Shown: piece by piece, positions 13,851 to 35,686 of the stretch | Layout: each line of letters begins with the position of its first letter | Numbering within the stretch: position 1 is the stretch's first letter | DNA from: Bryoerythrophyllum caledonicum | Taxonomy: Eukaryota > Streptophyta > Bryopsida > Pottiales > Pottiaceae | Assembly (NCBI GenBank): GCA_963971425.1 | Contig: OZ020519.1 | Location: 16,260,028-16,324,027, forward strand | Reading direction: 5' to 3' | Length of the DNA: 64,000 bases | The notes under the pieces: model-generated | Told to the model about the DNA's origin: nothing | Seen by the model: only the letters and a program-made list of their open reading frames with translations | The model's database searches: none | Program-made: the position numbers and the translations under genes

Positions 13851-14327
13851 TCTCATACCAAACTAAAAAAGGATAATGAAAATGAAGCAAGTGGCTTTTA
13901 CAGGAAGACAAGAAGTTCTATCTCTCTATATATTAAAAAAACACGTGGTGTCCTACAAAGCGGGAACCTAGACAAGAGACCTTGTCCCTAAGCGACACCA
14001 TATCCTTGCGTGTTACAGACTTGGTGCCACAACAATACACGGTATCAACGGATATTTAACTAAATGAGGACAAAATGATCAATTGTGGACCAAATTAGAT
14101 ACTTGTGACGACCCTAAACACCTACTAGATTGTCCTAAAATATATAATTTGTATGGGTGAAGGATACTCAGAATCTACTAATGATTGTTAAAATGCCGTG
14201 TGACTTCTCTTTTTGGGGGGCGGCCAACCATGAGGGTGCGTTGACGACCTAGACTCTTCGTCTTCCATAATTACAGGAATAGTGCTTTGTATCGCAGAGA
14301 TATAGTAGAAGGAATTTAAATGCAACT
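13851..14327. other. Spacer before the palindrome island
   Basis: No gene seen. The first palindrome copy of the island begins at 14328. No terminal repeat that would define an element end was recognised here. Confidence 0.35.
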
Positions 14328-15680
14328 ATCGGCGGGTAGCCGAGACGTAGTGATCGAGGATAAGGTGAAACAAACCATAATGGAGGATGGCGTCATGCAC
14401 ATAGTCCGCGATCACGAGCGTAAAAATATCTTGAATAAAGGGCTCAAATCTTGCGACTAGTGAAGATAGAGGAGGGTGGTTTGTAAGCACAAGGAGGCTG
14501 GAAAAGATTAGAAATGAGCTTCATACAAAACAATGAAGCCAACGGTTTATGGCACTTTGACAAACAAAAACGATTGCATATATGAGAAATAGTCAAAACG
14601 TTTGCATATGTTGTGTTAAGTGTATAGCCGCAGTCAGCGGGGAGCCGACAAGAACGCTCTCTTCTATCCAGAAAGAGACCTCGCCATCTATAACCAAGAA
14701 TAGTACCTACAGTGCGATCTGACAACAATTGAGTCCTAAAATAAGGATTATGCAATCCATCGGTTGGTAGCCGATGAAACAAGAATCAGTCTTCATCTCC
14801 ACAATTGACTAAGATGCCACTAGCCTCCAGAGTTGCAATCGCAGCGCTCGTTGCCTCAGGCGGAATACGGTGAGAACCAGGAGGGCCTTTCTTAGTGTGC
14901 GACGGATAACAGTGCGAGTAAAGAAGAATTTTGCAGTTTTGTACCTCTGAAAGACAAGGTTCCCTTTGCCATCTCCTAGTCCAGCATTCCCTCGCGACAA
15001 TCTTCTTTGATTCCTTCTTCCCTAACATGGGCAACTTTGAAATTCACCATTCGACTTCTTTGATTCCACCATTCGACTTTGAAATTCCTGTAGCAATCAC
15101 CTGGTGTCAGATTGACGCATTCAAGAACTCGGCCTATCCACACGGGAAGGTAATGACCGTTGCTAGGACGGTAGAGAACAAAATCATTGAGTAAAACATC
15201 TCGAAATGGATTGAACGACAGCTTTGGATGGCTCAATTCAGGGCCACAAAAAGGATATGCGTCGGGGTCATCCTCAGGGGTAATGTCCGGAATTTCACTG
15301 ACGACATCAGGCGACGTTGAGCCGCGAGCATGATCGCGAATCAAATTTGAAATTGGCCAAAATCCTTTCTGGAGAGACTCTCGGTTTGGTGGCAGGGGAC
15401 CAGAAATAAGTTGATGGATACGCTCCTAGTACAAAATGTACGGGGCCATATCCGTTGCATAACGCTTATCCCGGGACATGCCGGTCTTCCAAAACTCAAT
15501 ATATTTGGCAATTCCGTTCTTGATGAAGGATTGCTTCTCGCTGACTCGAGTGGCCCGAGCAACCTCCTTCTCTAGGTTTCTTTTGTTCTGGTTAACTCGG
15601 ACGTCCTTCGAGAGAGGCTTAAATGGGACTGGCTTTGGATCTCCAACAAGTAGGGGTGGATTTCCGTGCTCAACCGTGGT

Positions 15681-15899
15681 CCACATCTTGACAGGCTTAC
15701 TTGTAGGAGTCCAAGAAGAATTAGTGGCACAAATTGAATGAGCACACAAACTCATAGCAGGAACGTTTCGGTCCATCGGCGGGCCGCCGACGGAGATGGA
15801 AGACGACGAAGGTGGAGAAAGCTGAAGAGAGATGGGAATAGGAGTATTTCCATCATGACTGGCTTACCTGGAGGAAGCCAAGATGAATCAGCCGCACAC
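15681..15899. repeat. About 50-bp imperfect direct repeat flanking a palindrome
   Basis: On the minus strand, 15899-15848 and 15730-15681 share about three quarters of their bases. Both encode SSW(L/T)P(P/T)(G/S)KPV(M/K)M and both contain (C/A)AGTAAGCC or CAGGTAAGCC, a splice-donor-like string. The palindrome at 15775-15791 lies between them. A single block is expected in the protein family, so the pair looks like a local duplication that brought, or was brought by, the palindrome. The resulting splice phase does not work simply (phase 1 donor, phase 2 acceptor). Confidence 0.65.
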
Positions 15900-17344
15900 T
15901 TCTTGTATCTCATGAACGGCCATCCTACGTCATCTCCTTCCTCCTCCACGTAAAACTTGAATAGGTGCATCTCTCCCAATCCCACAATCTTGTTACTCTC
16001 GTCATGATGATATCCAGCAATATAACTCTTAAAATCCGCAGCCTCTTGGACAAGTTCCGGAATGAACGCGACAGTCTTCTGCGAGTCCATGAAGGCTTTC
16101 ATGAGGTCAGCCAAACAATAAGTATTCTTCCATTTGATGAGTTTCGATAGGTAACTAAAATGTGCGTCAATATCCTCATGAGTGTGGCCAACAATCAAGA
16201 ATCCCAGAGTGACCTCCTTGAAGATTTTTCTAGCTGTATATAAGAAGCGAACAAAACGCCATGAGGATCCGATTCTTGTTATCCTTGGCGAAGTTATCAA
16301 GCTAAAGAAACAACTTCCGAGGAAGCGAGACTTGCGGTTTACTAGAAGGAGTATTCGGGAACGGATCTCCTTTAGATTCTGGAATTGATGACATACATCT
16401 GGACTTCCCATGAAGTAGAGCATCAAAGAAAGGATTCAAAGGTGGACAGGTGAATAGCTCGTTGGACTCTTGCACGGGGCGCCTCTCTAATGCTCTTAGA
16501 ACACAACAGAGAGAAGAGATGGTGAAATTCGAGTCCCTCGGCTATAACGACGTCGAGTAATGAGCGTAGGCACCGTCGCCGTGTCCATGTGTGAGCATGC
16601 CGGTACATGAAATCGGAATCTGGCCGAGCCCAGAGGTGGCCTTGGTAATCCTCTGCATTCTAGGAATGGCCATCTTGGAGGTATTTATCTTGTCATGAAT
16701 TATGCAAAGGAACTCAGACAGGTACTGAATAGATTGAGTCAACCAGCCGGAACAAACATTTCTACATGCCCTTTAGTAGATTAGGTGCCTGTTTTTGTCA
16801 TCCGTGAGTCCTTGCCACTCGTCTGACCCGCGAGGATATTTTGCGATAAACTCGACGAGGAAGTCGCACTCCGTGCACCTGGAGAAGTTGTTGCCCACAG
16901 ACTTTACTTCTACATTTCTAAAGAACCTCTTCTTCATGTTACTCACCGCATATTGCGAAATCGGCTTAGCATGGCATTCGACGTTTACCTGGATAAGACA
17001 TTTTTAAGGATATCAGTAATACAGAAAGACGATGGTGTCATGGATATGCCCAGTAGGCGATGAGTGAGTTCCGTCGGCGGGCCGCCGACATCACTTGTTG
17101 AAGCGATAAAGAAAACAGACCATGCTAAATACAAAGATAGGGGAAAGTAATGACAATACTTACAAAGTTGGCCATGTCACGTAAGTGATTCCAATTCATA
17201 ACCGCGGGAACTTGGAAGGACCTTCAACGCGGCGACCCTCTTGTTTCTGATGACACGGAGCTCATTTGGCATCTGGTCTGTACTGTCGTTGATAATGCTC
17301 GATATGGTCCCACGAGCCTGAACGGTGTCCTGATGGAAATTCTT

Positions 17345-18990
17345 CCATCATGTACATACAAGTATTAGTCTTTATATGTGTGGATTTTAATAAGTAAGGA
17401 GTTGGGATAAAAAGGGGTTGGTCGTGGTAAGAACCACGGTTTGAGGATTTGGGCAAGTGTTAGCATGTAGGTGCTGCACCGCTCTTGTCACTGCTCGGGG
17501 GGGTAGGTAGCGGGTTGACTGGTATTTTTCCTGCCTCATTAGCGAGCCAAGCCGTGGGCCGCCCAACCACTCGACGGGCTCGATCGGGTTCAAACCCGGA
17601 CCGGCGGCAGCCACTGACCACGACATTTCCAGCCAACCAAGTCCACGACTTGGCGATCAGGTTGTGCGAATCAACACCTTTATACGTCCGTACCATCAGC
17701 TATCTTACGATAAGTTTTTTTCATTTAGTTATTTTTTTTTATTTTTTTTATTTTACTTATCTAGTTGGTTGGAAGGTCTAAGTTTTTAGTCTTCCAATAA
17801 ATAAATGACTAGGGGATTTTATGTGGTTGAAAGTGGAAAGGATAAGAAAGTAACGAAGTACCTTGTGGGGTACTTTGGGTAGGGTGACATGGGCTGGAGT
17901 GCCCACGTCCACTTGAGGTGGAAAAGGGGGAAAAGGAGATTCCTTAGTAAGTGTGTGTGTGTGTGCGGGTGAGAGAGCAAGGGTTTGGAGCAGAACTTTG
18001 ACTGTATGTAGCTCGGCGAATTTTGTTCGCATTGAATTGAAAATTTGAGGGTTTGTTCTTTGTCTTCAGAGATTTCTATACTCGTTTCAAAAATTGAATT
18101 CGGAGTTATGTAACAAAAGTTATGAAGGTTTGTTTTTCTGTGAAAACCCGAGGCCATCCATTGAGAGGCAGAGGTTTGACAAGCTATAACTTTTGCTGTA
18201 ATTCTTAGTTTTCTTTGAGATTTGGAGGGTGTATGCGTCTCTATCTTAGCTTTCTAGAAAGATATCACAATTGAAATTCAGAGTTGTGAGCAAGAAGTTA
18301 TAGAGATCTGAATGAATAGGGGTAGGCAGAACTTTGATTGTCCATAACTTTCGGAAAGTAGTTTAGATTGACTTGAAATTTGGAGGAGTGTTAGTTGTCT
18401 AAATTAGCTTTCCAGAGAGCTATTACACTTAGTATTTGAAGTTTTGAGTCATCTGTGTCACTTGTTTGAAGGTTACAGCCTTGGTGAAACTTTTCCATTG
18501 TGTTTTTGAACACTTCTTTTGAGTTTCTTAGTGTTTTTGAACACTTGAAGACTTTGGAGTTGAAGGATGGAGGAATTGAAGACTTGAGGCTTGACTTGAA
18601 GAGAAGAGAAGATGGAGACAAGTGTGTTGTGGCTTGTGGTCCGATTTCTTTTTTTGTGATTCCAAGCCAGCTTTGGAGGCTAGTTGTATTTCAATTCTGT
18701 TCTTGTGAACTCTGTTGCGGCGAAGTGGGATTAATTGCCCACACGGTCGTGTTTATGTCGTTCCCACCGGTGAGGCACGTTTGCTGGTCACCGTGGGTTT
18801 GAATTTTAGGAGCCAATCTTTCGGACGGTTTCAGCTTGTGGTCTGGCCGTCCCGTTTAACCCGTCCGAGGCTGTGGTTTCTTATCACCCATCTTTACCCT
18901 TAACCCTTTAGAGCCACGACAGGATAGGCCAACGGGGAGGAGTTTGAAGACTGAAGACTGAAGACTGAAGACTGAAGACTAGAGACTGAA
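17345..18990. mobile_element. Insertion splitting the DUF7869 gene, class unresolved
   Basis: The N-terminal (19083-19487) and central (from about 17330) parts of the DUF7869 gene are separated by roughly 1.6 kb without palindromes and with different composition. It contains a T-rich run (17715-17755), a (GT)n stretch near 17950, and several imperfect copies of a phrase like TTTGATTGTCCATAACTTT. It ends with a GAAGACT heptamer array at about 18943-18985. A solo LTR is the simplest idea, but I could not find matching 5-bp target duplications, so the ends are approximate. Confidence 0.4.
18943..18985. repeat. GAAGACT heptamer microsatellite
   Basis: Five to six tandem copies of a 7-bp unit (GAAGACT, with one AGAGACT variant). 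Confidence 0.8.
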
Positions 18991-19493
18991 GACCTGAAGA
19001 TTTGAAAATACGATTGGATTCCCGAGCAAACAATCTCCAGTCGCAGCTAGATTCCCTGCGAATTCTCAAGGCGCTCCCCTCTCTACATGACAACGGTGTG
19101 AGGCCCGGGTCGCAAAGTGCCTGCGTTACCGTGGCTGCCATTAATGCGACCGATCTTTGAATCATATTTGTAGTTGTAGTATGCGGACTTCGACTCGCCG
19201 TGAATGTTATACCAAACAACTTCACATTGAACATCGACACCTATAAGGTTGATGTATAATTTTCGGAATCCAAGAATTTGGTGAAGCTGGTCCGCAACTG
19301 CATAGGCCATGTCGCGTTGTTGTTCGAAGCTTGACGCGTAGTACTTCCTTCCAATCTTGCGGCTGTCTTCCCAACGAAATAATTGGCAACATCGTTTCTT
19401 ACAACACCTTCTCGCACTAACGAGGCGGCACTCATCTAGGCTCTGAAGGCGCCGGAACTTGGAGACTGACACATTGTCCTTCGGCAAAAGCTT

Positions 19494-20750
19494 TCAACAA
19501 ACGCCCCTGTAAAGATCCTTAGGCACACCCTCAAGCCCGTCATCCTCGCATGCAGCTTGACTATGCGTTGAGCAGAATATAAGGCACTCAAAAAGAAGTA
19601 GACCACCTTCAAGGCGTGTGTGAGTTAATCGCCAACGCATTGTTGTCATCTGAAGATCCTCGTCCTCTGAGACAAAGAGGACCCCAACATCAACGTCTCT
19701 TAAAATCTCTGAATCGCATGCCTCATGTGGCAAGCACACTTGGATCATGGCATGCCCGATAGAAACAAAGTTGTCATCTAGGAGATGGCAATACTTGTTC
19801 CGCCATTGTGGTCGGTCTAGGAACGAATTCGGAACAAATACACCGTCAAGGGTAGCGGATGGATTTTCAAAAGAGTGATAATTATGTTGTCGGCGGCCCG
19901 CCGATGAGATATCATCGTCTCTTCTAGTGGCCATTTCAGTCTCCGATTTGGATCCCTCCAAATAACTACGGGTACGATGATTATTATTGTCCTCATATAC
20001 CCTATCGGGACGGTTGTTGTCGTCCGATGCTTCAATGTCAGTATTGATCAATGAAGAGTCAATCCCCAGGGCATCATCGGAGCGGACATCAAGTGAAAAG
20101 GGACGAACTCGATAGCCACTCCAAAGGACTAGGAAGCCTACGGAATCGCCAAGAGCGCCGATGGATGGAATCTCGCAATGTGCGGGATGACCGACGTATT
20201 TGGAATTGACAGATTGAACTCTGACAAGCAGAAAGAAGCTTTGAGGAATGAGAAATCTCTCCCACGTACCCTTCGCTGAGCATTCGTCGATGACTCCAAT
20301 TCCTGCACAACATCTCTGATCGCCGCTGCCATCAAGTAAGACCACCTCCATGCCGTTGCTAAGGTCCAGAAACTCTTGGATGGGCTTAAGGTCATGAACT
20401 AAGAGAGTAGAAATCTCCGCACGCTCCTCTGAAAGTTCATCAATGTCAGCGTAAGGCCTAAGATCAGCGGCCTCCCAGTTGATCAATCGACCTTCGATGT
20501 CCCGCAACATGGAAACGCCATCCACAGGAAATGGAATGGGCATGTCCAGTGCATCGGACACTTCAATAACCTTCACACGTAAAATCCATGGGTCTCTGAG
20601 AACGACCCTCTCGACAATCGCCCTACCAGCAAAGTAAACGCAGGAATGAGTGAGAGCAACAACAACACGTCTGCGGGGCTTCCATCGTCCAAACTTTCCG
20701 TTCCTCATGAACGACAGCATGGGTTCGACATCCATGCTAACGTCAGTCAT
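19494..20750 (-). CDS. Unknown 418-aa protein next to the DUF7869 gene
   Basis: An open frame from MTDVSMDVEPMLSF to a TGA at 19494. I do not recognise the whole. The block FFLLVRVQSVNSKYVGHP followed by SIGALGDSVGFLVLWSGYRV resembles the DUF8039-type domain of plant transposon proteins (low confidence). A palindrome copy at 19889-19905 is translated here as SSAGRRQH inside an acidic, probably disordered linker. Directly after the TGA the same frame continues as KLLPKDNVSVSKF into the cysteine-rich N-terminus of the DUF7869 gene. The two may therefore have been one protein broken by a single TGA. Upstream, an acceptor-like TCTTTAG ends at 20760, 57 nt past the palindrome at 20801-20817, suggesting a 5' intron. 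Confidence 0.5.
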   Translation of the reverse strand: MTDVSMDVEPMLSFMRNGKFGRWKPRRRVVVALTHSCVYFAGRAIVERVVLRDPWILRVKVIEVSDALDMPIPFPVDGVSMLRDIEGRLINWEAADLRPYADIDELSEERAEISTLLVHDLKPIQEFLDLSNGMEVVLLDGSGDQRCCAGIGVIDECSAKGTWERFLIPQSFFLLVRVQSVNSKYVGHPAHCEIPSIGALGDSVGFLVLWSGYRVRPFSLDVRSDDALGIDSSLINTDIEASDDNNRPDRVYEDNNNHRTRSYLEGSKSETEMATRRDDDISSAGRRQHNYHSFENPSATLDGVFVPNSFLDRPQWRNKYCHLLDDNFVSIGHAMIQVCLPHEACDSEILRDVDVGVLFVSEDEDLQMTTMRWRLTHTRLEGGLLLFECLIFCSTHSQAACEDDGLEGVPKDLYRGVC

Positions 20751-20759
20751 ATGAAATCA

Positions 20760-21938
20760 CTAAAGACAATGGATGAGGAAATTCCAGCAACAATGATTTC
20801 GTCGGCCGCCCGCCGACGAGGGTGGCTCTGAAGTCGATGAACGTGATCAACAACCACACAAATCCCTAAATTAGCTCCATAGTTGCTGGGAAATCTGTCT
20901 TGTAAACCATGCTGTCGGCTGCCCGCCAACGGCTGAATGTTACACACAGAGTCTAACATATGAAGGATGTGACAAGCATCCGCCGAGCGGATATTATCAT
21001 CCGCCGACGGACTTTGGAACAAGAAAATAACATTCGGTGGGAACTAAGTTAGCATTACTTGATTTCAAATGAGCCATCTAAATAATTAACTGCCCGATAC
21101 GTGACAGTGAATAACCAAACATATTCAGATAAAGGAGTGAGATAAAAAAGGACCCATGCTGGACCAATGATAACGGACTTATGCATGATTAGATATATAG
21201 ACTCTAAATTAGCCTCTAAAAGAATCAGTACCAGTTGCGAGCGTGAGAAGTCAGAGCATTGAATAGGGGGCGAGCGAGTCCAGAAATGACGCGTGAGTTC
21301 CTAAGGTTTAGTTCATATCCCCACCATCATGCGTACTGGTTTGCGCGCGAACTTCAAATTTGAATTTAGCCGCCAAAATCAATCAACGACACGCGCTCAA
21401 GGGTTGAAGAGAGCGCGCCAAATTGTGCAGATTCAAAATGGAACGAGGTGACAAGATGAAATCAAATCATTCGAAGTGACATCGTAGGTGTAGGACCCTA
21501 TATCCTAGGCCGAATGATGGCCGAGGCGACATTAATGATGTCATATCAATTTGAGGTATCACGGCTCCAAAACCCCAGTTTCTATGTTTTTATCCGAGAC
21601 GACACTTCAAGATGGCATGTCACTTGGGAATTGATACCTGGATCAGGCTTAATACCCGAGCATGAAGTCTCGGCCTTCCGAAAATCTTCCTAGCAAGATC
21701 GAACGGCTACGACAGTCCACGTGATCCGAGTATAAAACCCTATCGTCTTCCTATTTCTGGTCATTTCTAATCCTGCTCTTCTTAATTTCGCGTTCCCGCT
21801 TAGTTAAGCGCGCTTACGGCTTTAAGCTTAGTATTTGGGTTCATCTGCCGATCGCCAACAGCCAACAGACGTCGGAGGCTAGCAGAGGCGCTTCAGCGCA
21901 ACTCATCAGCCGAGGAGTAATTTTCACCCACCGACAAA
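20760..21938. promoter_or_regulatory. Divergent intergenic region between the two halves of the island
   Basis: Minus-strand genes lie to the left and plus-strand genes to the right. It holds palindromes at 20801 and 20914, a related inverted pair near 20985-21000 (ATCCGCCGAGCGGAT), and several GCGCGC-type strings at 21330-21420. A shared promoter is inferred from gene orientation. No start site can be read from the sequence. Confidence 0.35.
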
Positions 21939-23759
21939 ATGGCGACAACGCAGAGGTATGTACATCATCACCGTCGGCAGCGAGCGGACGGATTTTGAGT
22001 GCCGTATTAGAAATGACCTTTTAGTTTGTAGTGTTTCGTCGGCGGCCCGCAGATGGATGTTGTGTTTAGTGTGGTTAAACTTACTGTGAAAATTGAATTT
22101 TCGTTCAGAAGTGATCACAAGTGGATGTAGTCAGGTTTCAGAATGAATACGTCATAGGGTCATCAAAATGTTATTTTGTGATTCACAATTGACTGCGTCC
22201 GTCGGCGACCCGCCGACAAATGCTAAGTTTAGTCTTGTAGAAGCTTATGTTGTATTAGGGTCTATCGCACAGAGGTGATAAGCAGAGTGTGTTGTGCGGT
22301 TTCCAAGGTCATAGTGTCTCCAAACATCCGTTTATGTGTTGTACACTTGTCACTGTCGTCGTCGGCAGCCCGCCGATGAAGTCTTTGGCAGGTTGTCTGA
22401 TCTTCCATTATGTCGCGCAGGACTGTAGTTCCAAACAAGCTGAAGTGGCTCGTCGGCAGTGTTGTGGACGTCAAAGTGGACGTGGGCTAGCCGGATGACA
22501 GCAAGCCACGAGTCACATGTGAAGTTCACCTACAGTTAACGTCGTGGGGCATCACATGGAGAAAGAAGGTGATTGTCGAGTTGGGTATCAACGAAAACCA
22601 CAACGCAAAAACATTCGTGGGTTAGAGCCTGGTGTCCGTGCTTGACATGAAGGAGGACACGGAAGACGATGAGAAAGTGCGATTCCTAATTCAGGTGAAG
22701 GTCAAAATGGCTGACGAAAATCTGGACATCATCGCAGTTCAAATTCCCTGGATGACATGCACTCAAGAGCTATGCATCACTACTTAGAAGAGCGGGATGC
22801 AGTTCCTCCGCTTCACTCCTCGTCCTGAAGATAGGACGGACTTGCTTACTTGTTTCGGAGAAGCAAAGGACCTCAGGAACGCGGAGCACTCCAGGGTTGG
22901 GGTTATGACGGCCTCAAAGTCAAAGACGGTGAGGAAGCCCAGGAACTCCAGGAAAGCAGGTAGCGACGCTCGGATTGAAGTTGCTGGAACTCCCGGCACC
23001 GGAGAGTCGAGTATGCAGGTGGTCACGAAGAGGGCGTCTAAGAAGGAGCCGAAGGTGAAGTCCGTGGCCGATGCGCTTTCATTTGCCAACCACCTCTCTA
23101 TCAAGACGAGTGGTCAGGAGTTGGACATCATGTACAAGGCGTTAGAGGATGGTCTTAGCGCTTGTTATCCATTCGGGCAAAACATGCTCCCAGCAAAGAT
23201 CTCCTCCGAAAAAATTCATGTTGCTCCCAACTCGATGAAGTACAGACCCATCATCGCGAAGCGCACAGAACAACTCGTGCTATTCTACAGAAGATTGGGA
23301 CCATGGCGGGGAAAGCCGCCTCTGTACGGTGTTCCTTTGCGGGGTCCTCCGGGAACAAAAGAGAATGGGAGGGAGCTGTACGGAATTGAGCTTGAGCTAC
23401 CAAGGATTCACGCATCCATGGACGTCGAAGTTGTGCTTGACGGAGTACACTACAAGTGGTGGAATTCTCCAACATGCCACTAGTACATCATTGGTGGCCA
23501 ACACACGTACATGGCATGCAAAGCACTCGGCGAGTTTCGGCCCGTGGATTCGGACGGGGCAAATTACTTCATCGATCACGATATTATCCCATTGTCGTCG
23601 AGGGATCTGGAAAATCTCGAGAAGATCTCCAACCTCTTGAACATTGAAATCAACGACAAGAAAGCAGAGGAGACCTTCGTGTCGCAGCTCCGGAAGATGA
23701 GGGATAAGTGGATCGAGCATGGTCGACTCGACAGGAGGACCAACTACAAGAAATGGAAG

Positions 23760-23908
23760 GTAATGTGTCAATTCACTCAGCAATTTTGCTCTCCGTTATT
23801 GGCAATCTCATGAGCATGGTGGATTAAATCATTGATTATGTTTCGTCGGCGGGCAACCGACAACATTGTGATTGAGCTCATGTTTATGTCATCTTCATCA
23901 TTTTACAG
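23760..23908 (+). other. Intron carrying a palindrome
   Basis: GTAATG to TTTTACAG joins AAATGGAAG to GAGTTCTGC without changing frame. The palindrome starts at 23845, 63 nt before the last intron base. Confidence 0.75.
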
Positions 23909-25201
23909 GAGTTCTGCAAGAAATACCTTGGAACACTGTTGGGAAAGGACTCCAAGACGAACACGTTAAAGTTGCCGCTTGTCTTTGCACTAGACAATCT
24001 TTACAACAAGTGGCAGGAAGTATTCAACGCATGGGATCGGGGCACCCTCATAGATGAGGATGGGAAGAAGCCCCAGAACATCCTTAAAACTCCTCAACGG
24101 GACCTCATCCTCCACGACCTTCAACACATTCTCGCCCTCCGGGACAAGGAATCCATGAAGTTTGCTCATGAAATCCTCGCGAAGAAAGTATACTTGAAGG
24201 TAACTGGGGGGCGCGACAAGGATGCAGAAGGAGTATCGCTCAAATCCTGGTGTCAAGACAAGAAGATGGAATACATCATCAAGAACAAGTTCATGCTGAT
24301 GTATCGGAAGTATCCATTGAAGAAGGCTGGCGATAACACCTACTCACCTTGGCCAGTTGAAGAATACATGCAGTTGGTAGAAGAGAAGGGCATCACTGAC
24401 GAAACCGTCATGAACATCAAATGCGAGTTGGAGCTTAGTGATGTGGGGAAGGCCTACCTCAAAGGGAGGTACAATGGGATTACTCCAAGTACCACCCCAG
24501 CTCTAGCGAAATTCCATGCGGCGTTACGGAAGTATGCCCTCAACTGCAACGATGTTGTAGATGAGTATAGTGTCCGTCACGAAGTTCGGGTTGCGCAGGA
24601 GCTTGAGGACGTCGTGAGCCTGATCGATAAACCCGGACTCTTCAATCTCGAGAAGGCGGCGCGCAAGATGTTCATCGTGTTCGGCTTTGATAAGGGCAGG
24701 GATCCGATCTACTGCAACAAGGACGGGCTCAAGGCTATTGCAGAGAGGGTGTTGCGGGGTGATGGGGATGACCAGGAACTCTACGCCCCTTCAGTCTTCA
24801 ACATAGACGACGAGTCTAATTTCATGATTGAGACTAAATGTCGTTCGAAGAAGCTAGATTGCGCAGTCCACACCATCCGCTACCTTCCAGACTCCAGCAG
24901 TAGATTCACTCCTTCCGCCATGGATGAGAGACCCATCGTGCATGTCGGCATCTTCTTCAACCAGCCTAAAGCTCAACGGGACCGCCTACGCCAGTTTCAA
25001 AAGGTAATTGGACTGACGAAGCCTCTCAGTTTCTACTACGACAACCCTGCCTCGTCCTCGGCTGAGAGTTGGGCTGGAGATGAATGCCATCCAAGCTTGG
25101 GGTTGCTCTCAACAATTTTGCAACCCACACTGGTGAAGGGCGACTCAAGTCTGACCGTTTTCAACACTTGGGGTGGAGGCAACGTGACTGCATTGGCCTT
25201 G

Positions 25202-25321
25202 GTAAGTCACTTCTCTTTCATCCAATCATTCCGTCTTTCCATCACCTTCTCGTGTTCGTCGGCGGCCCGCCGATGAGATAGTTTTTATTTTGATTATTGA
25301 CCGACACTAATTGCCCAACAG
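25202..25321 (+). other. Intron carrying a palindrome
   Basis: GTAAGT to CCCAACAG joins GCATTGGCCTTG to CGACACAAG in frame within the methyltransferase-like motif I. The palindrome starts at 25258, again 63 nt before the last intron base. Confidence 0.75.
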
Positions 25322-25447
25322 CGACACAAGGCGACAGTGATCAAGTTTGTTCGCGAGGAGGCGGAGGTTGCTGTCGCGATGGAGCAGGTGCAGGTGTTGC
25401 AGTTCGTAGAGACAGTATTCCTCCGGAATGCACCTAATCGTCACTAA

Positions 25448-27333
25448 ATGCTTCCAAAGTAACCGCTCTGGTTTCGTTCCCATAGAGACCTGCTGTTTCT
25501 TCTAGAATCACTAAATAATCCTCTTACACTAAGCACCAATCCACCAGAACCTCATTCTCACTCGTTCTACAATTATTTCCGGATCCTAAAAATAGATTCC
25601 GGATCCTTCCGGATTCCGGATTCCAAAAATAGTTTCCGGATCCTTCCAGATTCCGGACTTGTTACCCTAGTTTCCGGATCCTTCCGGATTCCGAGTAACT
25701 CTTGATGGAGCTTCTTCCGGAGTTTTTAAGCTAGTGGCCGGGTGCCACTGATCCTGTTTTGTGTAAGTGGCCGGATTCCCCACTGTCTTGTGACTTAAAG
25801 TGGCTAGACACCCACTCTCCCTACTCCGCTAACCGGTGGTTGATTGCTGCTACTAGATCCACACTCTCACACCATCCGGATGGCCATCCGGACGCGGTCA
25901 CGCGGAGATAAGTCTAGACTACAACGACATTCCGGCAAGTGCTGTCGTGATTCTACCAAGTGAGTATTACGGTTTGCAACGAGGACTCCTTCTAGACATA
26001 CACATCAGGCTTTTTCCTCTATCGTAAGGGGAAATTCCGGCCGCAACCGAAATCCGGGTTCACACGGATTCTCCGTGCCCTGGGAGCTATCAGGCTCACT
26101 CCTGCAATACCCTCCCTCCCCCTCCAGGCTACTTCCGGTCCCTGTGGATCGTCAGACTCTATCTAACCTCTCCTCCAGCTCTTCCGAGCGATCTCCCAAT
26201 GCAAGTCCCAACCGGTTACCTCAAGTTACAAACACAATAACGCTCACTATGATAGAACCTATCCACAACAACACAAACCACAATGGATCCGTTCCTCACA
26301 AAAACGCTCAACACTAGGATATAGAGAAATATATTCAAAGGCTAAGATGTTTTCAGATAGAGGAGACAAGATGATGAGCCTCCCAAGACTCATCCTTTAA
26401 GTACTAACTAAGTTCCTAACCTCAGCTCCATCTTATCCGCGAGGAATCCGGAAAATCTTATCCTAAAAGATCTTATCCTGAAAATCTGGATTTCAAATCT
26501 CAGATCCGAAATTTATGGATCTGAGATCCGGTTTCCGGCTTCTGGCTTTCGGCTTCCGGCCTTCCGAAATCCGGAAATCCGAAAATCCGGAAATCCCTCA
26601 ATTTCGGAAATCCCTGATTTCCGGAAGTTCCCTGAAGTCCGGAAATTCCCTGAAGTCCGGAAATTCCCTGAAGTCCGGAAATTCCCTGAAGTCCGGAAAT
26701 TCCCTGAAGTCCGGAAATCCCTTCCGGACTCACAGTTTTCTAGACTTAGGCATTCCGGATGCAAACTTTCCTTAGTCTCCTTTGATAGTAGCCGGGTGCA
26801 ATCCTGAGCCCCATCGTTAATCGCTACTAATTCAAAAGGGACTAGGAATTTTCTAATACTACTCCTAACTATGGTGGCTTCTTATTCTTACGCCTAGGTG
26901 ATTCCTCTATCTTCTTCCCGGCGTCTGTCTTCTCCGGAGTCTCCTCCGGCTACTAAGTTCCGGATCCGGAAATTGCTGCTGGAGATTCTTCTGCTGGTGG
27001 TGTTGCTGCCGACCTCCCTGCCGACCAGATCTGCTCTTAGAGTTGTCTTGAGGAACAAACGGCTGCCGGATGAGGTCCGTTTCATGATGACAGTTCCGGA
27101 ATCCGGATCACCCCTGAAATAGTCCGGATTTCTCCAGACATCCGCACTAATACTAAGTACTCTAATAGCACTATTTAAGGATTCCGGTTGGACCATGATT
27201 CCTTATTTCTTATTTCTACCTATTTGCCTCCTACTATAATATTCTATTTACTAATTTTTTATGAAATTTGATATCTAGCCGGATTTTAAGGCTATATCCG
27301 GAATTATGTGGGAACGGATTCCCACAGTAGGCA
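25448..27333. repeat. TCCGGA-rich repeat insertion, probably LTR-like
   Basis: About 1.9 kb without a palindrome copy, dominated by TTCCGGATCCTTCCGGATTC-type repeats. It ends in a perfect inverted pair at about 27307-27326 (TGTGGGAACGGATTCCCACA) directly before the next island gene. A solo LTR or other insertion is likely, but no target duplication was found and the left end is not defined. Nothing here looks coding. Confidence 0.45.
26628..26718. repeat. 18-bp tandem repeat
   Basis: Five near-perfect copies of TTCCCTGAAGTCCGGAAA inside the TCCGGA-rich segment. Apparent reading frames over it (repeated GISGLQ or FRTSGN) are translations of the repeat, not genes. Confidence 0.85.
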
Positions 27334-29392
27334 ATGTCCTCCCTACCGGGCAAAGCTCACGTGCTTGCGCTAACGCTTCCAGCTGAGCCCGTTGTGGGAT
27401 CCAACGAGGTGGTCACATTGACTGAAATCGACCAGGATTGAGACCATGGGACCGAGATGGGCGAGGATGCGATGGACGAAAACCTTTTCTCCGACAACGT
27501 TGACAACGATGGACTGCTCACAGCAGCTGACTTAGGTGTTCGTCTTGATGAAGCACACCTGATAAGGCCTCAGAAGAGAGGAAAGGCACCAGTTTTGGTG
27601 TGACTAGAGGTGGCGCCGCAGTGCGATGACCGTCCCCCTACACCAAGTGGGATGACCATCCCCCTGTTTGCACAGCCTGCGGATGAGACCGTCTTGCGCT
27701 CACAAGGTGCCTTCGTCCCTCCCCGAGGTGTGACCCTAATCGACCCAAGAGCCGGCGGTCCGCCGACGCCGCCTGCACCAAGCCTAGCTGTATTTGGTGG
27801 GCCTGTACCGCGTGAGAATCCTTCGAGTTCTTCACAGCCAAGCGCGTCTGCTACTCCAAAATCCGGCGATGTTCTACATGATGCACCGGTGCCAGAAGTG
27901 GTGGGCAAGAAGAAGAAACCAAATGTGAGGATTATTCCTCCAAACCGGACTACTCACGTTGCGGCTACCAAAATCAGTGGAGGATAGACTCCCCAAAGTT
28001 CCGCCCCCACCGAGCCACCGAAAAAAAAGCCACGCAGCCATTCGCTGAAGAGCAAGGCACCGTCGGAAGAAGGTGGCGTTTGCTCCGGAGTGCCGTCATC
28101 AAAGAGCCCTTCAAAGATCAGTAAGGAGGGGCGGTCAAGGAAGGAGTCGCCTCCGCCTGCAAAAAAGGGAGTGCGGAAGTCAAAGAGGGGGGATAGCGCT
28201 GGTTCCACCCTAAGAGAACTTTCAATGTCCCCTGACTCTGCTGATCATCCCAACATGGGGCTTTTGCCTACTTCTCCTTCTGTGAGGCAAGATACAGGCA
28301 ATACATCCGAAGGTTAGTCACGAGATAGTGCACCTAAGAGATTTTCTTGCAGTTTAGGACACTACCTTTCTAATACATGTACTTTATCACGTGAACACAA
28401 AGCTCTTTTTCCATGGTTGTTCTTCTGAGTTCGCAGTCTGTTATCAAAATGTATTTTCGTGTTCCACTTCTGTGTCGGCTGCCCTTCGATTGTATATCTA
28501 ATAGCTTCCATATTTCTATCAAGCAGCAGTCGACCCGAGTATTCCTAGTGCTGCCGTTTCAACTCCAGCAATTGACGAAGATGGAGCGGATCGGGAAACG
28601 GAGGCACTTGAGCACTTCATTCAGGTGGGCAGACAACCACTCAGTGACTATTTTGTTGTCCTCCAAGTAGACGGCCTGTTACTCGCCCTGGATATTGACA
28701 AGGACGTGTCGTTGTATAGCAATATCCGGCCACGCATGGTTGAGTTTCTTAACTACTGCGTTACGAACTTCAGTATTGTGATCTGGAGTTCGGAGAATCC
28801 AGATAGGCATGCCCATGAAATGAAAACCCTTAGAGATGTATGTCCCAGCATTAGAAGGCTTCGTTATATTTTTTATTAGTCGTACTGCGACGTGGCGAGG
28901 TTTGATGTTGGGGGTCAGAAACTCTACCTGAAGAGGCTGTCTACTCTTTTTTTGAGTCCCTCGGCGCTGAAAGGAACTCAAGCGAATAGCGGCAACACCC
29001 TGTTGATTGATGTTTCTCCTATTTCGAACGTCAAGAACAGTCCATACAATGCCATCCATCCGGTTTTCTTCACCATGGATTCTATTGAGACCTTTACAAA
29101 TGAGTCCTCTGTTCTCTTCAAGGTCTCAAAGTTCCTTGAAGCCATGAAAGAGTCGGGCATGTCTGTACCCTTGTATACCGCGGTTGCCAATTGCCTTTCC
29201 TTGGTGAAGGAATCGGCTGTGCCTTTCGAAAGTCCAAGAATGGCAGCCCTTCGTGTGGTAGAAAAAGAGAAAACCTCCACTGCTAGGGCCGTCGTCCCTT
29301 GGATCGGTCGTCTCCTACCACGTGACCTTGAATGGAAGCAGTACATATGGTCGTACCCAAGCAATAGGCGTCCACGTCCTAATACTACTTAG
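27334..29392 (+). pseudogene. FCP1/NIF-type HAD protein, copy 1, catalytic site lost
   Basis: Exon 27334-28312 and exon 28527-29392 join G|CA in frame (intron GTTAGT to AAGCAG, palindrome at 28474). Together they give 614 codons. The first 350 residues are disordered, rich in Pro, Ser and Lys (PPKKKPRSHSLKSK, KKGVRKSKRG). The FCP1/NIF HAD domain follows from about 28640: DYFVVLQVDGLLLALD, IRPRMVEFLNYCVTNFSIVI, WSSE, then NTLLIDVSPISNVKNSPYNA and IHP. This family dephosphorylates proteins such as the polymerase II tail with a DxDx(T/V) motif. Here the first Asp is Gln (LQVDG) and IDDSP is IDVSP, so activity is unlikely. In-frame stops: TGA at 27439 and 27601, TAG at 27985 and 28877. A palindrome lies in the coding part at 27751 and another begins 8 nt after the final stop. 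Confidence 0.7.
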
Positions 29393-29585
29393 AACTTGCC
29401 GTCCGCGGGCAGCCGACGCTTGCAAAACCCGTGTTGTAATTCACGTCTGTATAAATCTACAAAAATAAAGATTGTCTCCAACTTTCTGAGGTTCATATTC
29501 CAAATTTATGTTGTCATAACAATCACAGTTTCCGGTGCTTATGTTTAATATTTCTTATATCTATGTCGTCGACTTTGGCCTCCAG

Positions 29586-30303
29586 GTGCCCCACATTGTG
29601 GCTGGATCTAAAGCGGGGGAAGAATCCATCCAGAAGCATTTTGAACTGCCAACTGTGAAGGTCAATCACTACTTCCTTGTCCTAGGTGTAAACGGTTTGT
29701 TGATCGCACAGAATATAGGCAGGGATGGAAAGTGGCATACCAAATTCAGGCCGAAGTTGGCTGAGTTTATCAACTTCGGCGTGGATAACTTCACAATTGT
29801 GCTTTGGAGTAGCGAAAGTCAGCCTAAGCTCGGTGCCCAATTGGTTGCCCTCAGAGACCACTGCCCGGTTCTTAAAGTAGTCAAACACGTATACGATAAT
29901 TCCTACTGTGATGTAGCTAAGAAATGGTAGGAACTCGGAACATAGTCCTCATTAGACTGTCTTCATTGTTTTTGAACCGAAAGGCAATGTTAGGATCTGG
30001 CGCGAATAGTCAGACACCCTTTTGCTTGACGATTGTCCTTACAGGAATGTCAAGAATAGTCCTCTGAATGTAATGCATCCGATGACATTCATCCTACAGT
30101 CAATGGAGTCGGAGAAGAACGTTGTTCTTCCCGGGGTCATTGAGTACCTTTCTGCTTTGTTAGAGTCATGTTTGCCTATACCCGAATATATTCGGAGGAA
30201 TCCAGGCTCTGGATGCCCTCAACTCTCCCCCGGTGATCCACAATGGGAGGACTTTGTTCTGGCGTACCCGAGTAGTAGGCGTCCCCCTCGTACCGTTGCA
30301 TAG
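29586..30303 (+). pseudogene. FCP1/NIF-type HAD domain, copy 2
   Basis: Coding resumes after an acceptor-like CCTCCAG ending at 29585. Recognised blocks are NHYFLVLGVNGLLIAQN, FRPKLAEFINFGVDNFTIVL, WSSE, YDNSYCDVAKKW, then after frame damage LLDDCPYRNVKNSPLNVMHP and LAYPSSRRPPRTVA. The nucleophile Asp is Gly and the second Asp is Asn (LGVNG), so it is a probable pseudophosphatase even if translated. TAG codons occur at 29928, 29943 and 30007, and a frame change lies between 29945 and 30007. The C-terminal SSRRPP tail is shared with copy 1 (PSNRRPRP), which proves tandem duplication. A palindrome begins 9 nt after the stop. Confidence 0.7.
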
Positions 30304-30475
30304 TAATTCGGCGTCGGCAAGCAACCGATGCCGAAATCGCCCAATTTTGCCAGGCATGACATTCATGTCTGTAACACTATTTTTCTTCGAAATGCAATTC
30401 CTCTCAATAATCACTGTCTTCCTTGCACATGGCTCATCACTTATTGTATGCATTTGAATCGGCTTTTCCATTCAG

Positions 30476-31399
30476 GTGGACTGTCATGTCGAGGAGATTG
30501 AGGAGCTTGTTCCGATTTCAAAAAACCCGGTTATTATAATACTCGATGACAGCTCACCGGAGAGACCGAGTCGTCACCCGATCGACGGCTCGTAGTCAAC
30601 GGCTTCCCTCCCCGACATTTGTCCTTCCCACTTCTTCTATATGGAAGTTGACGATCGAGACTTTGCACCATCACCGCTGGAGGAGGAGGGTCCCGAATGT
30701 GTCCACTGTGTTCTTGTCGAATCCGTCGCCGACCACGGTGTCAAGAGAGAAGGCGACAGCCAAGCCTTCGCCTCTCACGGAGCTTGGCCTGGGGCGGTCG
30801 GAGTAGTCGGCGGGCCGCCGACAACTACATCTACCCCATACCCGGCTGCCAGCGTGAGCTCCGAAGTTGTTCCAAGGAACATTCAGGTGGGTCCTTCAAG
30901 ATACTACCTCGTCCTAGAAGTTAGAGGGCTTCTAATAACTGAACGATATGGTTATCGAGGAAGAGATAAGAAGCCCCATTTTCATCAAAAACCTAGGCCA
31001 GGTCTTCTTGAGTTTCTGACGTTCTGCCAGTCCAACTTCGGATTGGCATTCTGGTCCACCGAGAAATATCAACCCATGATCAGACACATGGGTTATTTGC
31101 GCGAGGTGTACCCTGACCTACATAAGGACGTCCGAGAGATGTCCAACGGGTTTTGTGATATATCTGCCTGGACGAATCCGAAAACAATGAAGTGCGACAT
31201 GCTGCTCAAGCGGCTTGCTCGTCTTTTTCGAGATAGACGCTATCTTATTGGGCCAGACGCGAATGAACGGAACACACTTCTGATCGATCATTACCCCCTT
31301 CGTAATATCCTAAATGATCTTTTTAATGCAGTGCATCCTTCAATATTCACATACTCTTCTCCGGAACACACATTGCCTGGAGGACAGACATATCTTTAA
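30476..31399 (+). pseudogene. FCP1/NIF-type HAD domain, copy 3, with a SUMO-interacting-like motif
   Basis: An acceptor-like CCATTCAG ends at 30475. One frame then runs VDCHVEEIEELVPISKNPV, IIILDDSSPERPSRHP, a TAG at 30593, and on into MEVDDRDFAPSPLEEEGPE. The HAD domain starts at about 30895: RYYLVLEVRGLLITERYG, RPGLLEFLTFCQSNFGLAFW, STEK, DMLLKRLARLFRDRRYLIG, NTLLIDHYPLRNILNDLFNA, VHP. The catalytic aspartates are replaced (LEVRG, IDHYP). PVIIILDDSSPE has the shape of a SUMO-interacting motif. A palindrome is read in frame at 30806, although CATTCAG|GTGG at 30886 may mark an intron end that removes it. Coding-like sequence in another frame (RIFPGTAVHNRYREVLSFYQ) continues to 31608. Confidence 0.65.
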
Positions 31400-31914
31400 A
31401 GTATGCTGATTCCCTAGCTTCAGGGACTACTCCAGTCTAGATTCAACGTCCGGGATTACTGCATTCGATTTGGGTCACCGTCGTATTTTCCCGGGAACAG
31501 CTGTCCACAACAGATACCGAGAAGTCCTCTCTTTTTACCAAGAGGGCTACGACAAGCCAGGTTGTCTAGATGAAGTAATGGCGAAGTTGACAGTCACTCC
31601 CCCATCTTAGAGAGCCATATTTTCTCAAAGGGCCTCCCGGAAAGGCACCCACTTAAATTCACTGGACTCTCGCCCATCATAACACATTGATAAATGTTAT
31701 AGACAATTTCATGTAATTACTTTTATATATTCATCTCAAATTTTGCTGAACTACTTTTCTTTGTTTTATATTCCTCGCATATTTCATTTGAGTGGTTTGT
31801 TTTATTATCCATCTACTTGTTGTAGTTTCCTTCGTCGGCGGCCCGCCGACGTGTTTTACTTCTCACTTCCACCCGTACTTTGCATTATGACAATGTTTCT
31901 TTAACATTTTCCAG

Positions 31915-32575
31915 GGAACATCCTTCCATTTCAGATGCCTGCACGCTCCTCCATCACCGATTCGAAAATGTATTGTACTATGCGTCAATGGTCTTCTTTG
32001 CTATGTGGACCCTTGCAAGTCGATATCTTCTCATTTCCCTCATGGGAATGATGTCCGGAGGCCGGGCCTAAAGAAACTATATGAAATGTTACTTCCGCGC
32101 TTCAACATCGGGCTATGGTCAACAAGTTAAAGCCGCTCTTGTTGTATATTCTTCCGGAAGGAGTCTTTCAATGTTTGTCGTTTGTTTAGAGCAGAAGTGA
32201 CTTAGCTGATAGTTCCAGGTTTCCTTGAAGCTACAGAACGCCGTCCACTCTCTATAAGAAGAAGCAATCTAGACATGTTTGCAAGCCTTACCAAGTACTG
32301 TTTGTCGACGTTGAACCCAAATCGCTCCGACGTACCCCCGACTGGATGTGCTATATCCCCTGGCCGTTCCGTGGTCATTTGACCTCTCCAACCGAAGACG
32401 GAGTAATCCCAAATGTGGCGACCGACATCATTCCGCTCATCTTTCCCCTCCATAGATTTTCATCCGTCCCTGAATATATATCGCAGGTTGAATGCCCGAG
32501 GCAGGCGCATTGGGCGGTTACGCATGCCCGCAAGTATGGGCGAGCCATCGTCAGATGGTCGGAAGTTGAATGGTA
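31915..32575 (+). pseudogene. FCP1/NIF-type HAD domain, copy 4, frame-broken
   Basis: After TTTTCCAG (ending 31914) the frames give KCIVLCVNGLLCYVDPCKS, SSHFPHGNDVRRPGLKKLYE and MLLPRFNIGLWSTS, then a TAA and a frame change. From about 32280 another frame gives YQVLFVDVEPKSLRRTPDW, NVATDIIPLIFPLHRFSSV, PEYISQVECPRQAHWAV and RWSEVEW ending at 32575. The layout fits an FCP1/NIF HAD domain, again without the nucleophile (LCVNG, VDVEP). A palindrome starts 11 nt after the stop. The divergence from copies 1-3 suggests an older branch of the same expansion. Confidence 0.55.
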
Positions 32576-32603
32576 GGTCTTTCTCCATCGGTGGCCCGCC
32601 GAC

Positions 32604-34391
32604 TGTTGTTCGTTGAGCGTATTACCTTCGAATTGTCTGATGTCATATTGACAATCCCTAGCGCTTTCTATATCACATGTTCTTTATATTCACACTGTTC
32701 TTGAACTTATCTCGCTGGGTAGACTAAGAGGTTTTTTTTAGTAGAATGAGTGATTTGTAAAAGACGTTGTTTTCTCTACTAGGTCTATTTTGTTAGTCGG
32801 CGGGCAGCCGACATTGTACTTATCTTCCTATTAATTTATGTGTTCATGTTCTTTGGCTGCATCTTCGTTGTCTTGCCACTGCCGTTCAATGTTTTCGACG
32901 CCATACTCAGAACCCATGTTTGACAATTCCACTCGCATATCTTTCATCTTCCGCGATTTTTTTCGTTTATATTTCCTTGGATTTAATTATTACCGTAGAA
33001 AAGGTTTAAGCAAATTGATGCAATTTGTTGTCCTTGTCTTTGATCGGCTGTCAGCCGACAATCACGTACTGTGATTTTTCAAATAATATTGACGTCATTC
33101 TTTAAACTTTCTAAAGTGGTATGTATGATCTGGAATTTGATAACAACACCCTCAACCATTGGGCGCCACTGGAATCTACGACTGTGGTAGATTTTTTGAA
33201 CTGCATCAACGCTCTGGCAACATTTTCGGCCTAAACCCTCTCTAGAATGGGTGAAGCCCATTTTCATGAGTCAGTTGTCCGCCGATGAAATGTTCTCGCC
33301 ACTTTTATTTCTGGAATTTTTTTTTTCCACATTTAGTTAAATATCCGTTTATCTCGTTGAGACAAGATATTATCCGAAACATGGTATTATGCGAGGGCAA
33401 AGTCTACCTTCTCCGTGTTGGGAACGATGAAATTAGTAGTTGGTAAATAAATGAATATTACCATTGGAAAATGAAAGAGTATTGACAACAAGTTGCAAAA
33501 TACAACAAAACTCAAAAATGTCATGAATGTAACATTCAAAATTGCAAAATTCAAAACGTCATGAATTCAAAATGTCATAAATACATTAATAAGAAAATGA
33601 GCACCATATGTACGTAGTATGAATATAATTTTTAAAACAAGATATTCATATATTTGATCAAATTAGAACCTTTACTCTAACATTTAATTTATTTTTAACA
33701 TAGAATCGTAAAAAATAGCCTCAAATGACATTTAAATGGAGTATATCATCCTAACCCCTAAAGGACCAAGGCATGTTAGAGGAATCTCTACTCCCTTGAT
33801 TAAAAACTTCGAAGATGATTTTTTTGAGAATGTTACTGCAGGATCAGTTTCCAAAATTTTATGAGAGGATATGGTTAAAAAATTATGAATTTTGACGGAA
33901 CGGATTAAAATATATTTGCAGTCAAAGTGAAAAAAGTTGTCTCTAGAACGGACACTTGGTCCTGTGGGGGCTAAATAATTTATTTGGTTCTACGGGGGCT
34001 AAATAATTCATTGTGTTTTTTGTTCGATGTTCTCTAAATCTTCCATGATAGTTTCCTTTTTTCTCTTTTTTTTCAAATTATCTCTCAAAGACCTACCCAC
34101 GGTGTCACAAAATTATGTCCACTTCAGACCAGAGACAGGAAGAAAGCAAAATCTACGGAAAACCTAGATGATATCTTCATGTCAAGTCTATTACCGGCGT
34201 AGACTTACGAATCCCTCTCCCAGGTCTTTAAAGTACCCGACAAACTTTAAAGTACCCGGAAAATTTTGATCTTTAAATTTTCCTGAAAAACTTTAAAGCC
34301 AAGCCAAGCCCTTTATCCGGTAAGTTACGCTCATCACCCGAATCCTCAAGTGCTGTTGAGGATTTGCAGCCAAACTCAAGCTTTGCGAGCT
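32604..34391. other. Right edge of the island and intergenic spacer
   Basis: The last three palindromes are at 32796, 33043 and 33270. From about 33290 the composition becomes AT-rich and looks like the flanking genome. No coding region or terminal repeat was recognised. About 34230-34391 is the likely promoter and 5' UTR of the next gene; GTACCCGACAAACTTTAAAG and variants are repeated at 34228-34300. Confidence 0.4.
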
Positions 34392-35686
34392 ATGGCGGCA
34401 CTCGCAGCCAGCTCAGTCTGCTCTGCTTTCGCGCCTCCAGCAATCTCAGCTTTCAAATCCAAACGCAAAGTCACTCTCTGCAGTCTTCACCTGAGAAATT
34501 GCACTCAGAATGGAAATCGACCGAGGCTAATAGGGTTGAGGCCTGGGAGAATCGCAAGAGCGATCCCCGACGATACGGACGACAACATGGACGACGAGGG
34601 CGTGGTGCGCGACATGGAGCGGTACTTGAACGACTTATCCGTCGAGTACGAGAATGTGTGGGACACCAAACCTGCGTGGTGAGTGAATTTGGAGCGAATG
34701 TCTGCGGAATCAGCCAGGGTTTAGGGTTTCTGATTTGCTTTTCATTTGCAGGTGTCAGCCGTGGACGATTGTGCTCACGGGCGTCACTGGCGTGAGCTTG
34801 TCGTGGTTGCTGATTAAGTCCGCCATTGTGACGGGGATCGTCACGATCTTGGTGGCCGCGTGGTGGTATGTTTTCCTGTATACGTATCCAATGGTGAGCT
34901 CAAACCCCTGGTCCAGCTCCTGAAACTCTCTTTACGCCCGAGAATTCTGTATATATTCTGTGTTATGGCAGATCTTGTTGTTCTCATGAGCTGAGGATGC
35001 ATCAGATTTGAAGCTGTCAAATCTTTGGCGTCGGATGGTCCTGTAGCATTTTTACATGATTCATCTTTTAGGGTTTGCTACTTCTCTCTGTGAAGTCAGA
35101 GAGAGCCATATTGCTAGCGATTTGCTAGTTTGTGCCCTGCGGCGATTGTGAATTTTGGCAGATCTCGGTGATTTCATGAATGCATCAGAATTGAAGTCGT
35201 AACAATAGCTTTCATTGTTGTAGCATTGTTTCATGATTTATATCTTAGTGTTCGCTTATTGATTAAATGTATGCATCTAGGGTCACAGAGAGCCATGTTG
35301 CTGGTGATGTGCCCTGCATTTCTTACATTTGTTTTCCGTAATTCTTTTTCTGCAACACGAGTCCTTTATTCGATTCCCTGAGTTTATTTCCACAATCTCA
35401 CGACGGTTCAAAATTTTTCTTCACCTTGCAATGCCCGTCTAGTTCTCGCGGCAATATGGATGTGGTAGCTTCTTCTGGTACCTGATGTAGCAGATTTTTC
35501 TACCACACAACTTCCCTGCTTGAATCCTTGAGGTTGCGTTTATTTTCACAAGAGTTTTGTATAATTTTTTTTGTGACTGTCAGCTTCTTATGTTTGTTGC
35601 AGGCTTATACAGCAATGATTGCGGAAAGGCGGCGGAACCAGAAGAACGGAACGGAAGACACTTACGGATTGCGAACGGGAAAATAG
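34392..35686 (+). CDS. Chloroplast thylakoid-type small membrane protein (DUF6737-like)
   Basis: Three exons (34392-34678, 34752-34893, 35603-35686) with GT-AG junctions encode 170 aa in one frame. The first about 60 residues are Ser/Ala/Arg-rich and short of acids, like a chloroplast transit peptide (MAALAASSVCSAFAPPAISA). The acidic segment DDTDDNMDDEGVVRDMERYL follows. The conserved block is WCQPWTIVLTGVTGVSLSWL, then two hydrophobic helices (VSLSWLLIKSAIVTGIVTIL and ILVAAWWYVFLYTYPM), then MIAERRRNQKNG at the end. This pattern matches a small family shared by plants and cyanobacteria, which I associate with DUF6737, of unknown function. The ATG at 34392 is the first in-frame ATG. A plastid membrane location is inferred. 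Confidence 0.75.

Follow-up and report, generated by a model that had tools for sequence, protein, structure and literature searches.

Dispersed palindromes in a Sola-like DNA transposon of the moss Bryoerythrophyllum caledonicum may be binding sites for a protein of the element itself

The stretch analyzed here, referred to as the window, comprises 64,000 nucleotides of the moss Bryoerythrophyllum caledonicum (contig OZ020519.1 of GenBank assembly GCA_963971425.1, positions 16,260,028 to 16,324,027) and lies in contig C7 of the 437-Mb assembly in which all genome-wide scans were made. In a first-pass annotation, an island at 14328-33286 was described as mobile DNA with a 17-bp palindrome as its signature, possibly representing a new element class. 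Judged from its sequence, this island belongs to a large, multi-copy DNA transposon with terminal inverted repeats (TIRs) and 4-bp target duplications, of which it is a dead copy. It carries a transposase gene, an accessory gene and four NIF/HAD-like domains, and its main features are as follows, in window coordinates.

14043..14046, target site duplication on the left, TATC, read from the flanks
14047..33349, + strand, whole transposon copy of ~19.3 kb including two nested insertions, with sharp ends common to genomic copies
14047..14070, + strand, left TIR, 24 bp, one difference from the family
14789..15728, - strand, C-terminal part of the transposase, SH3/BAH-like fold as modelled for homolog P0001
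15851..17009, - strand, DUF7869 (RNase H) part of the transposase, broken by stops and a frame shift (Pfam, tblastn)
17213..17326, - strand, N-terminal part of the transposase gene beyond the nested insertion (tblastn)
17329..19091, nested insertion, not in the compared copies, 8-bp duplication AACGGTGT at its flanks
19092..20756, - strand, N-terminal part of the transposase gene (tblastn with the copy-A reading frame)
22464..23759, + strand, accessory gene exon 1, GGQHT motif, no known domain (tblastn)
23909..25201, + strand, accessory gene exon 2 (tblastn)
25322..28071, + strand, accessory gene exon 3, split by the insertion 25395-27328 (tblastn)
25395..27328, nested insertion, missing from the copies compared, junction with a 3-bp overlap
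28526..29392, + strand, NIF/HAD-like domain 1 (Pfam in other copies, tblastn)
29586..30303, + strand, NIF/HAD-like domain 2, broken in the window copy
30596..31611, + strand, NIF/HAD-like domain 3 with an N-terminal extension, broken in the window copy
31915..32576, + strand, NIF/HAD-like domain 4, broken in the window copy
33326..33349, - strand, right TIR, 24 bp
33350..33353, target site duplication on the right, TATC, read from the flanks

The ends were defined by comparison with other copies. Seven palindrome clusters on contig C1 were compared with the window, to which they are similar in blocks of 86-92% identity. The similarity stops at 14042-14047 in all five C1 copies having a left end and at 33349-33352 in all five having a right end, so that the alignment of islands proposed in the first-pass annotation gave sharp common ends on both sides. 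The earlier limits of the island are correct as the span of the palindromes, but the true ends of the element, 14047 and 33349, lie slightly outside them. Of 12 end pairs of the window's own family (family 1), 11 show the 4-bp target duplication. The 12 are the window, the whole copies A, C and D (chosen by palindromes) and J and K (chosen by TIRs), and six ends-only pairs; those besides the window are all the plus/minus pairs of perfect TIRs less than 30 kb apart among the matches listed. In the single pair without a duplication, one of the six ends-only pairs, the ends are 28.5 kb apart and may belong to two elements. In the whole genome, 245 and 249 matches to the TIR were found on the two strands at up to two mismatches, compared with 0 in the control. 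Among the perfect matches listed, 53 of 100 are on C1, which makes up 65 of the 437 Mb (15%); perhaps the element is concentrated on one chromosome, either a sex chromosome or a repeat-rich one.

Four complete copies without large insertions measure 15.2-15.6 kb, giving an intact length of about 15.4 kb, and copy D, which carries insertions, measures 18.8 kb. The pairwise identity among the family-1 copies compared is 89-97%. The greater length of the window copy is due to its insertions at 17329-19091, which has a TGAAGAC repeat near its end, and at 25395-27328, which is rich in TCCGGA-based tandem repeats with periods of 18, 36 and 37. The window copy is considered dead because its transposase and HAD frames are broken by stops or frame shifts. 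Together with the genome-wide clustering of the palindrome (see below), the shared ends bear out the earlier claim of mobile DNA with the 17-mer as its signature. The suggestion of a new element class was not upheld, as the structure is that of a TIR DNA transposon whose target duplications are 4 bp long and which resembles Sola most closely.

The earlier DUF7869 label is confirmed by a Pfam match in the window itself. A Foldseek search of the transposase model against the PDB gave no match at E<=0.001, and an RNase H (DDE/D) fold is supported in the model by a second look with VIA-align, the order of strands and helices, and conserved residues. In DUF7869, the aspartates D214 and D254 are invariant, and D82, D85 and D256 are nearly invariant; their places in the predicted fold are plausible and their catalytic roles putative. 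The NIF/HAD label had been given from the window, where the two frames tested remain below the Pfam cut-off, but in less damaged copies two of the four domains pass. In the frames of copies A and C, all four match the Pfam NIF family, two above and two below the cut-off, and in the second family described below, three of three domains tested are above it. In 8 of 8 HAD domains read by eye, the first aspartate of the catalytic DxDx(T/V) motif is absent at the motif I position; a script flagged DID further along in HAD1 of family 1. The ParB/methyltransferase label formerly given to the accessory protein was not confirmed by any Pfam or NCBIfam match. PDB sequence searches with this protein yielded nothing usable, and the AF2 model of its homolog P0122 is low (pLDDT 32), the visible feature being the GGQHT motif. 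Two homologs of exon 1 were found, and none of exon 2 at E<=0.01 among 6125 candidates.

Among superfamilies, the element is most like Sola. It is tentatively placed there by its duplication, DDD-like transposase and size, the only Pfam name being DUF7869. In the accessible part of PMC10741241, Sola elements are described as having a DDD-type transposase and 4-bp target duplications, sometimes exceeding 15 kb, with Physcomitrella as a host, and a Physcomitrella Sola1 is listed in the corresponding part of PMC9033089. The 4-bp duplication and the large size are thus shared, whereas the dispersed palindrome array and the HAD-like cargo are not mentioned for Sola in these parts of the two sources.

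The palindrome occupies 24 distinct places in the window (47 strand matches at up to three mismatches), all of them within 14328-33286, and none was found in the remaining window at this threshold. In 100 dinucleotide shuffles, the number of places averaged 0.52 and never exceeded 4. The palindromes are therefore confined to the island, as had been claimed from a count of 23. Their places are given below.

14328..14344, palindrome 1
14633..14649, palindrome 2
14759..14775, palindrome 3
15775..15791, palindrome 4, intron, between transposase coding blocks
17073..17089, palindrome 5, intron, between transposase coding blocks
19889..19905, palindrome 6, inside the transposase reading frame
20801..20817, palindrome 7, divergent intergenic region
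20914..20930, palindrome 8, divergent intergenic region
21973..21989, palindrome 9, divergent intergenic region
22038..22054, palindrome 10, divergent intergenic region
22201..22217, palindrome 11, divergent intergenic region
22361..22377, palindrome 12, divergent intergenic region
23845..23861, palindrome 13, intron
25258..25274, palindrome 14, intron
27751..27767, palindrome 15, inside a reading frame
28474..28490, palindrome 16, before HAD domain 1
29401..29417, palindrome 17, just after the HAD domain 1 reading frame
30313..30329, palindrome 18, just after the HAD domain 2 reading frame
30806..30822, palindrome 19, inside the HAD domain 3 reading frame
31834..31850, palindrome 20
32587..32603, palindrome 21, immediately past HAD domain 4
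32796..32812, palindrome 22
33043..33059, palindrome 23
33270..33286, palindrome 24

The sites avoid coding sequence. Coding blocks make up 70.5% of the element and contain only 3 of the 24 palindromes, the other 21 being non-coding (P 5.6e-9; the blocks were taken from tblastn and open frames, and their intron borders are approximate). The non-coding palindromes are mostly located in introns, in the divergent promoter region and in other non-coding DNA, six of them between the transposase gene (- strand) and the accessory gene (+ strand). No palindrome overlaps with the TRF tandem arrays of the window, and the array is not of the tandem-repeat type.

The sequence of the sites was analyzed using the majority base over ten copies for each of the 24 family-1 sites. 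The half-site reads R-T-C-G-G-C-K-G (RTCGGCKG), with a free centre that is mostly G or C, and its positions 2-6 are almost invariant. The inner base at position 7 is G in 33 half-sites, T in 14 and C in 1, and the pairs formed by the two halves (G/G 11, G/T 7, T/G 3, T/T 2, C/G 1) indicate that the halves are independent. CpG decay was considered as the source of the G/T difference and rejected, as deamination of the CpG at positions 6-7 would leave T at position 6 or A at position 7 but would not produce a T at position 7. Single halves that have decayed to A at position 7 are indeed present, as at 21973, 22361 and 30313 of the window copy.

The palindrome could also be an RNA or DNA hairpin, acting as a signal for termination, processing or cruciform formation. 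Some copies are perfect mirrors, and three sites are found shortly behind the ends of reading frames (29401, 30313 and 32587). However, positions 7 and 11 are unpaired in 11 of the 24 majority-base sites, and Watson-Crick pairs are no more frequent than in shuffled sites (15 vs 15.0 at positions 1/17, 13 vs 13.2 at 7/11 and 22 vs 22.0 at 8/10). The paired changes reported in the first-pass annotation are present as mirror-image variants, but the two sides vary independently over the 24 sites. The hairpin reading proposed there is unsupported for lack of covariation, and a hairpin is regarded as very improbable. Independent halves fit a protein that touches each half separately rather than a paired stem.

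A second family of the element provides the main evidence on what the sites are for. In a genome search with the third HAD domain (HAD3), 150 of 1583 candidates were scored, and 54 of these 150 rows have 52-61% identity, 30 of them without a stop; the 54 rows may include more than one family. Family 2 is sampled by two copies, on which its results rest: the right part of one (L053) and the left 7 kb and right end of another (L054-L057). The latter measures 16.7 kb and has the 4-bp duplication CAAT (one of one family-2 copy with a duplication). About 1 kb past the right end of the former, at L053 6796-6849, lies a 54-bp inverted repeat with perfect arms of 26 bp. The identity between the families is 72-80% in the transposase (L054) and 52-62% in the HADs (L053), and the TIR of both family-2 copies has one difference in 23 from that of family 1. 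In the palindromes of family 2, 28 of 30 half-sites have T as the inner base (P 2.5e-9 by Fisher's test, in which half-sites are counted although the switch may be one event), and in five further sites (L055-L057) it is T in 9 of 10 half-sites by eye. The change, G/C to T/A, keeps the two sides paired, although a change of the half-site explains it equally well.

Where the right parts of the two families can be aligned, 8 of 11 family-1 sites coincide base for base with a family-2 palindrome; two of the other three are in a terminal stretch that is not in the family-2 copy, and one is in a reading frame. With gaps counted as differences, the families agree at 117/187 positions of the sites (63%), compared with 652/1596 of the other non-coding DNA (41%) and 2737/4416 of the coding DNA (62%). 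In the aligned palindrome arms, 97 of 104 positions agree. This arm agreement and the excess of the sites over other non-coding DNA indicate that the arms have been kept by selection and that the inner base was switched throughout. The palindrome might instead be a very short sequence, mobile in its own right, that has built up within the element, as the bases adjoining the sites look unrelated. Nevertheless, its places are constant in the family-1 copies covering them and in 8 of 11 comparable places in family 2, and no empty site was seen, making this explanation extremely improbable.

The second family also bears on the possibility that the palindromes are transposase-binding sites for excision or insertion, like subterminal repeats elsewhere. 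Some sites are near both ends (285, 572, 702 and 14737-15420 of the 15499-bp reference copy), and the transposase differs between the families as well, as given above. The majority of the sites, however, are far from the ends, in introns and in the central promoter region, and the TIRs have remained nearly identical while the palindrome changed. Transposase binding is hence judged improbable. Binders of subterminal repeats, such as TNPA of Spm/En, recognize many copies of a short element-specific site. In the present element, the sites occur throughout the whole length and not at the ends only.

The two motif types are also separated in the genome. With both families included, the palindrome has 4107 and 4101 strand matches at up to two mismatches, compared with 182 and 175 for a reversed control. 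The first 100 places listed, all on C1, are clustered with recurring spacing, and eight lone places among the matches listed are all inside copies of the element (77-94% identity). Thus, among these matches, the 17-mer does not have the uniform distribution that the first-pass annotation had held to speak against its claim. Perfect sites number 481 for G/G, 611 for T/T and 6 for A or C in both halves, with 0 in each control. In the first 16.95 Mb of C1, the 50 T/T sites fall into 14 clusters and the 22 G/G sites into 6, and no site is within 20 kb of the other kind. By eye, five of six family-2 HAD3 rows of this region are in or up to 2 kb from T/T clusters, and four of four family-1 rows are in or beside G/G clusters. 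The different spelling of the motif in the two families suggests that the DNA of each is marked for a binding protein belonging to that family.

The main rival explanation is that a host stress transcription factor (AP2/ERF, DREB type) docks on the palindromes, which would form an enhancer array for transcription under stress. On one strand, each half-site reads GCCGAC and fits the DRE/CRT core RCCGAC, as given in the accessible part of PMC7570135, and the divergent intergenic region holds six of the sites. From a host factor common to both families, however, one would expect neither the fixed mirror pairing over 5 bp, spread via introns and 3' regions over 15 kb, nor a family-wide switch of the base adjoining the core. 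A or C in both halves is almost absent genome-wide, though the DRE core does not extend to that base. The mirror pairs and an inner base that is restricted to K and switched between families set the sites apart from DRE/CRT, and a host factor is considered unlikely.

The reading considered moderately probable is that of a Sola-like transposon whose palindromes are bound by a protein of the element, the array serving escape from silencing or activation as a group. The palindromes are putative sites for a dimer, and the separate variation of the halves argues strongly that the protein would contact the two half-sites separately. The binder is probably encoded by the element itself, because in the sister family the inner base has changed jointly in almost every half-site, and so complete a change of one base speaks for a motif that coevolved with a protein carried along by the family. 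This protein would load along the element's own non-coding DNA, and loaded copies would escape silencing or be activated as a group, by analogy with VANC for VANDAL. The candidate binders are the unnamed accessory protein and the HAD-like domains, whose divergence between the families exceeds that of the transposase.

Comparisons among copies of one family weigh against this reading. In the two TIR-chosen copies, the sites are no better kept than non-coding DNA outside CpG (9/442 vs 162/7718) and only slightly better at CpG (14/357 vs 47/708). The difference is larger in the ten main-set copies (CpG 69/1312 vs 250/2431; non-CpG 56/1612 vs 1217/27188) and still larger in five of the eight fragments with lone sites (CpG 18/109 vs 34/110; non-CpG 7/129 vs 266/1829), but the main set was nearly all found via palindromes, and this choice biases both comparisons. 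Judged from these alignments, selection on the sites is visible between families and not among dead copies.

The VANDAL elements of Arabidopsis have a MULE transposase and target duplications of about 9 bp. The present element differs in having a DUF7869 transposase and a 4-bp duplication, and its motif is a 17-bp inverted pair that is dispersed singly, whereas VANDAL targets are found in tandem repeats. In addition, no Pfam match to the VANC protein (DUF1985) was found in nine reading frames taken from copies A and C. For Arabidopsis VANDAL elements, anti-silencing through a sequence-specific binding protein of the transposon has been described; in the accessible part of PMC5735166, VANC21 of VANDAL21 binds YAGTATTAY in the non-coding parts of its own family, loss of methylation follows, and the motif types differ between subfamilies. 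The likeness consists of a short family-specific motif in non-coding DNA, motif types of subfamilies and accessory genes beside the transposase (PMC5735166, PMC10398659, as far as their accessible parts go). In fungi, DNA transposons encoding TET/JBP dioxygenase carry a cargo thought to act on their own methylation (accessible part of PMC12730594); theirs is an enzyme cargo, and no such domain was found in the present element. In the literature covered, outside which subscription papers and Repbase entries lie, no paper was recognized as describing this element, and none with DUF7869.

The surroundings of the element contain further genes. About 1 kb past its right end, at 34287-34923, are reading frames of a DUF6737 gene (E 6e-19). 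Neighboring frames with a C-terminal Myb-like domain are located at 3255-4223 and 5377-6555 and are duplicated ~2.1-2.3 kb apart, with 79-91% identity in blocks. A PIF1-like helicase frame at 56497-57297 (E 4e-36) is presumably part of a Helitron. The window contains no Rfam family at gathering score, no tRNA and no tmRNA.

It is tentatively proposed that the element represents a second case in plants of sequence-specific anti-silencing, evolved independently of the first, in which a Sola-like family would cover its non-coding DNA with a dimeric self-encoded protein by way of dispersed palindromes, protein and motif coevolving so that sister families of one genome recognize only themselves. 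The dispersed, family-specific array makes it possible to test whether self-recognition systems of transposons arise repeatedly, here under another transposase than that of VANDAL. The two motif types, G and T, in one genome are ready material for swap experiments. In addition, the placement of the DUF7869 family among the DDE/D transposases gains support, and the NIF/HAD-like pseudo-enzymes and the unnamed accessory protein are linked to transposon biology.

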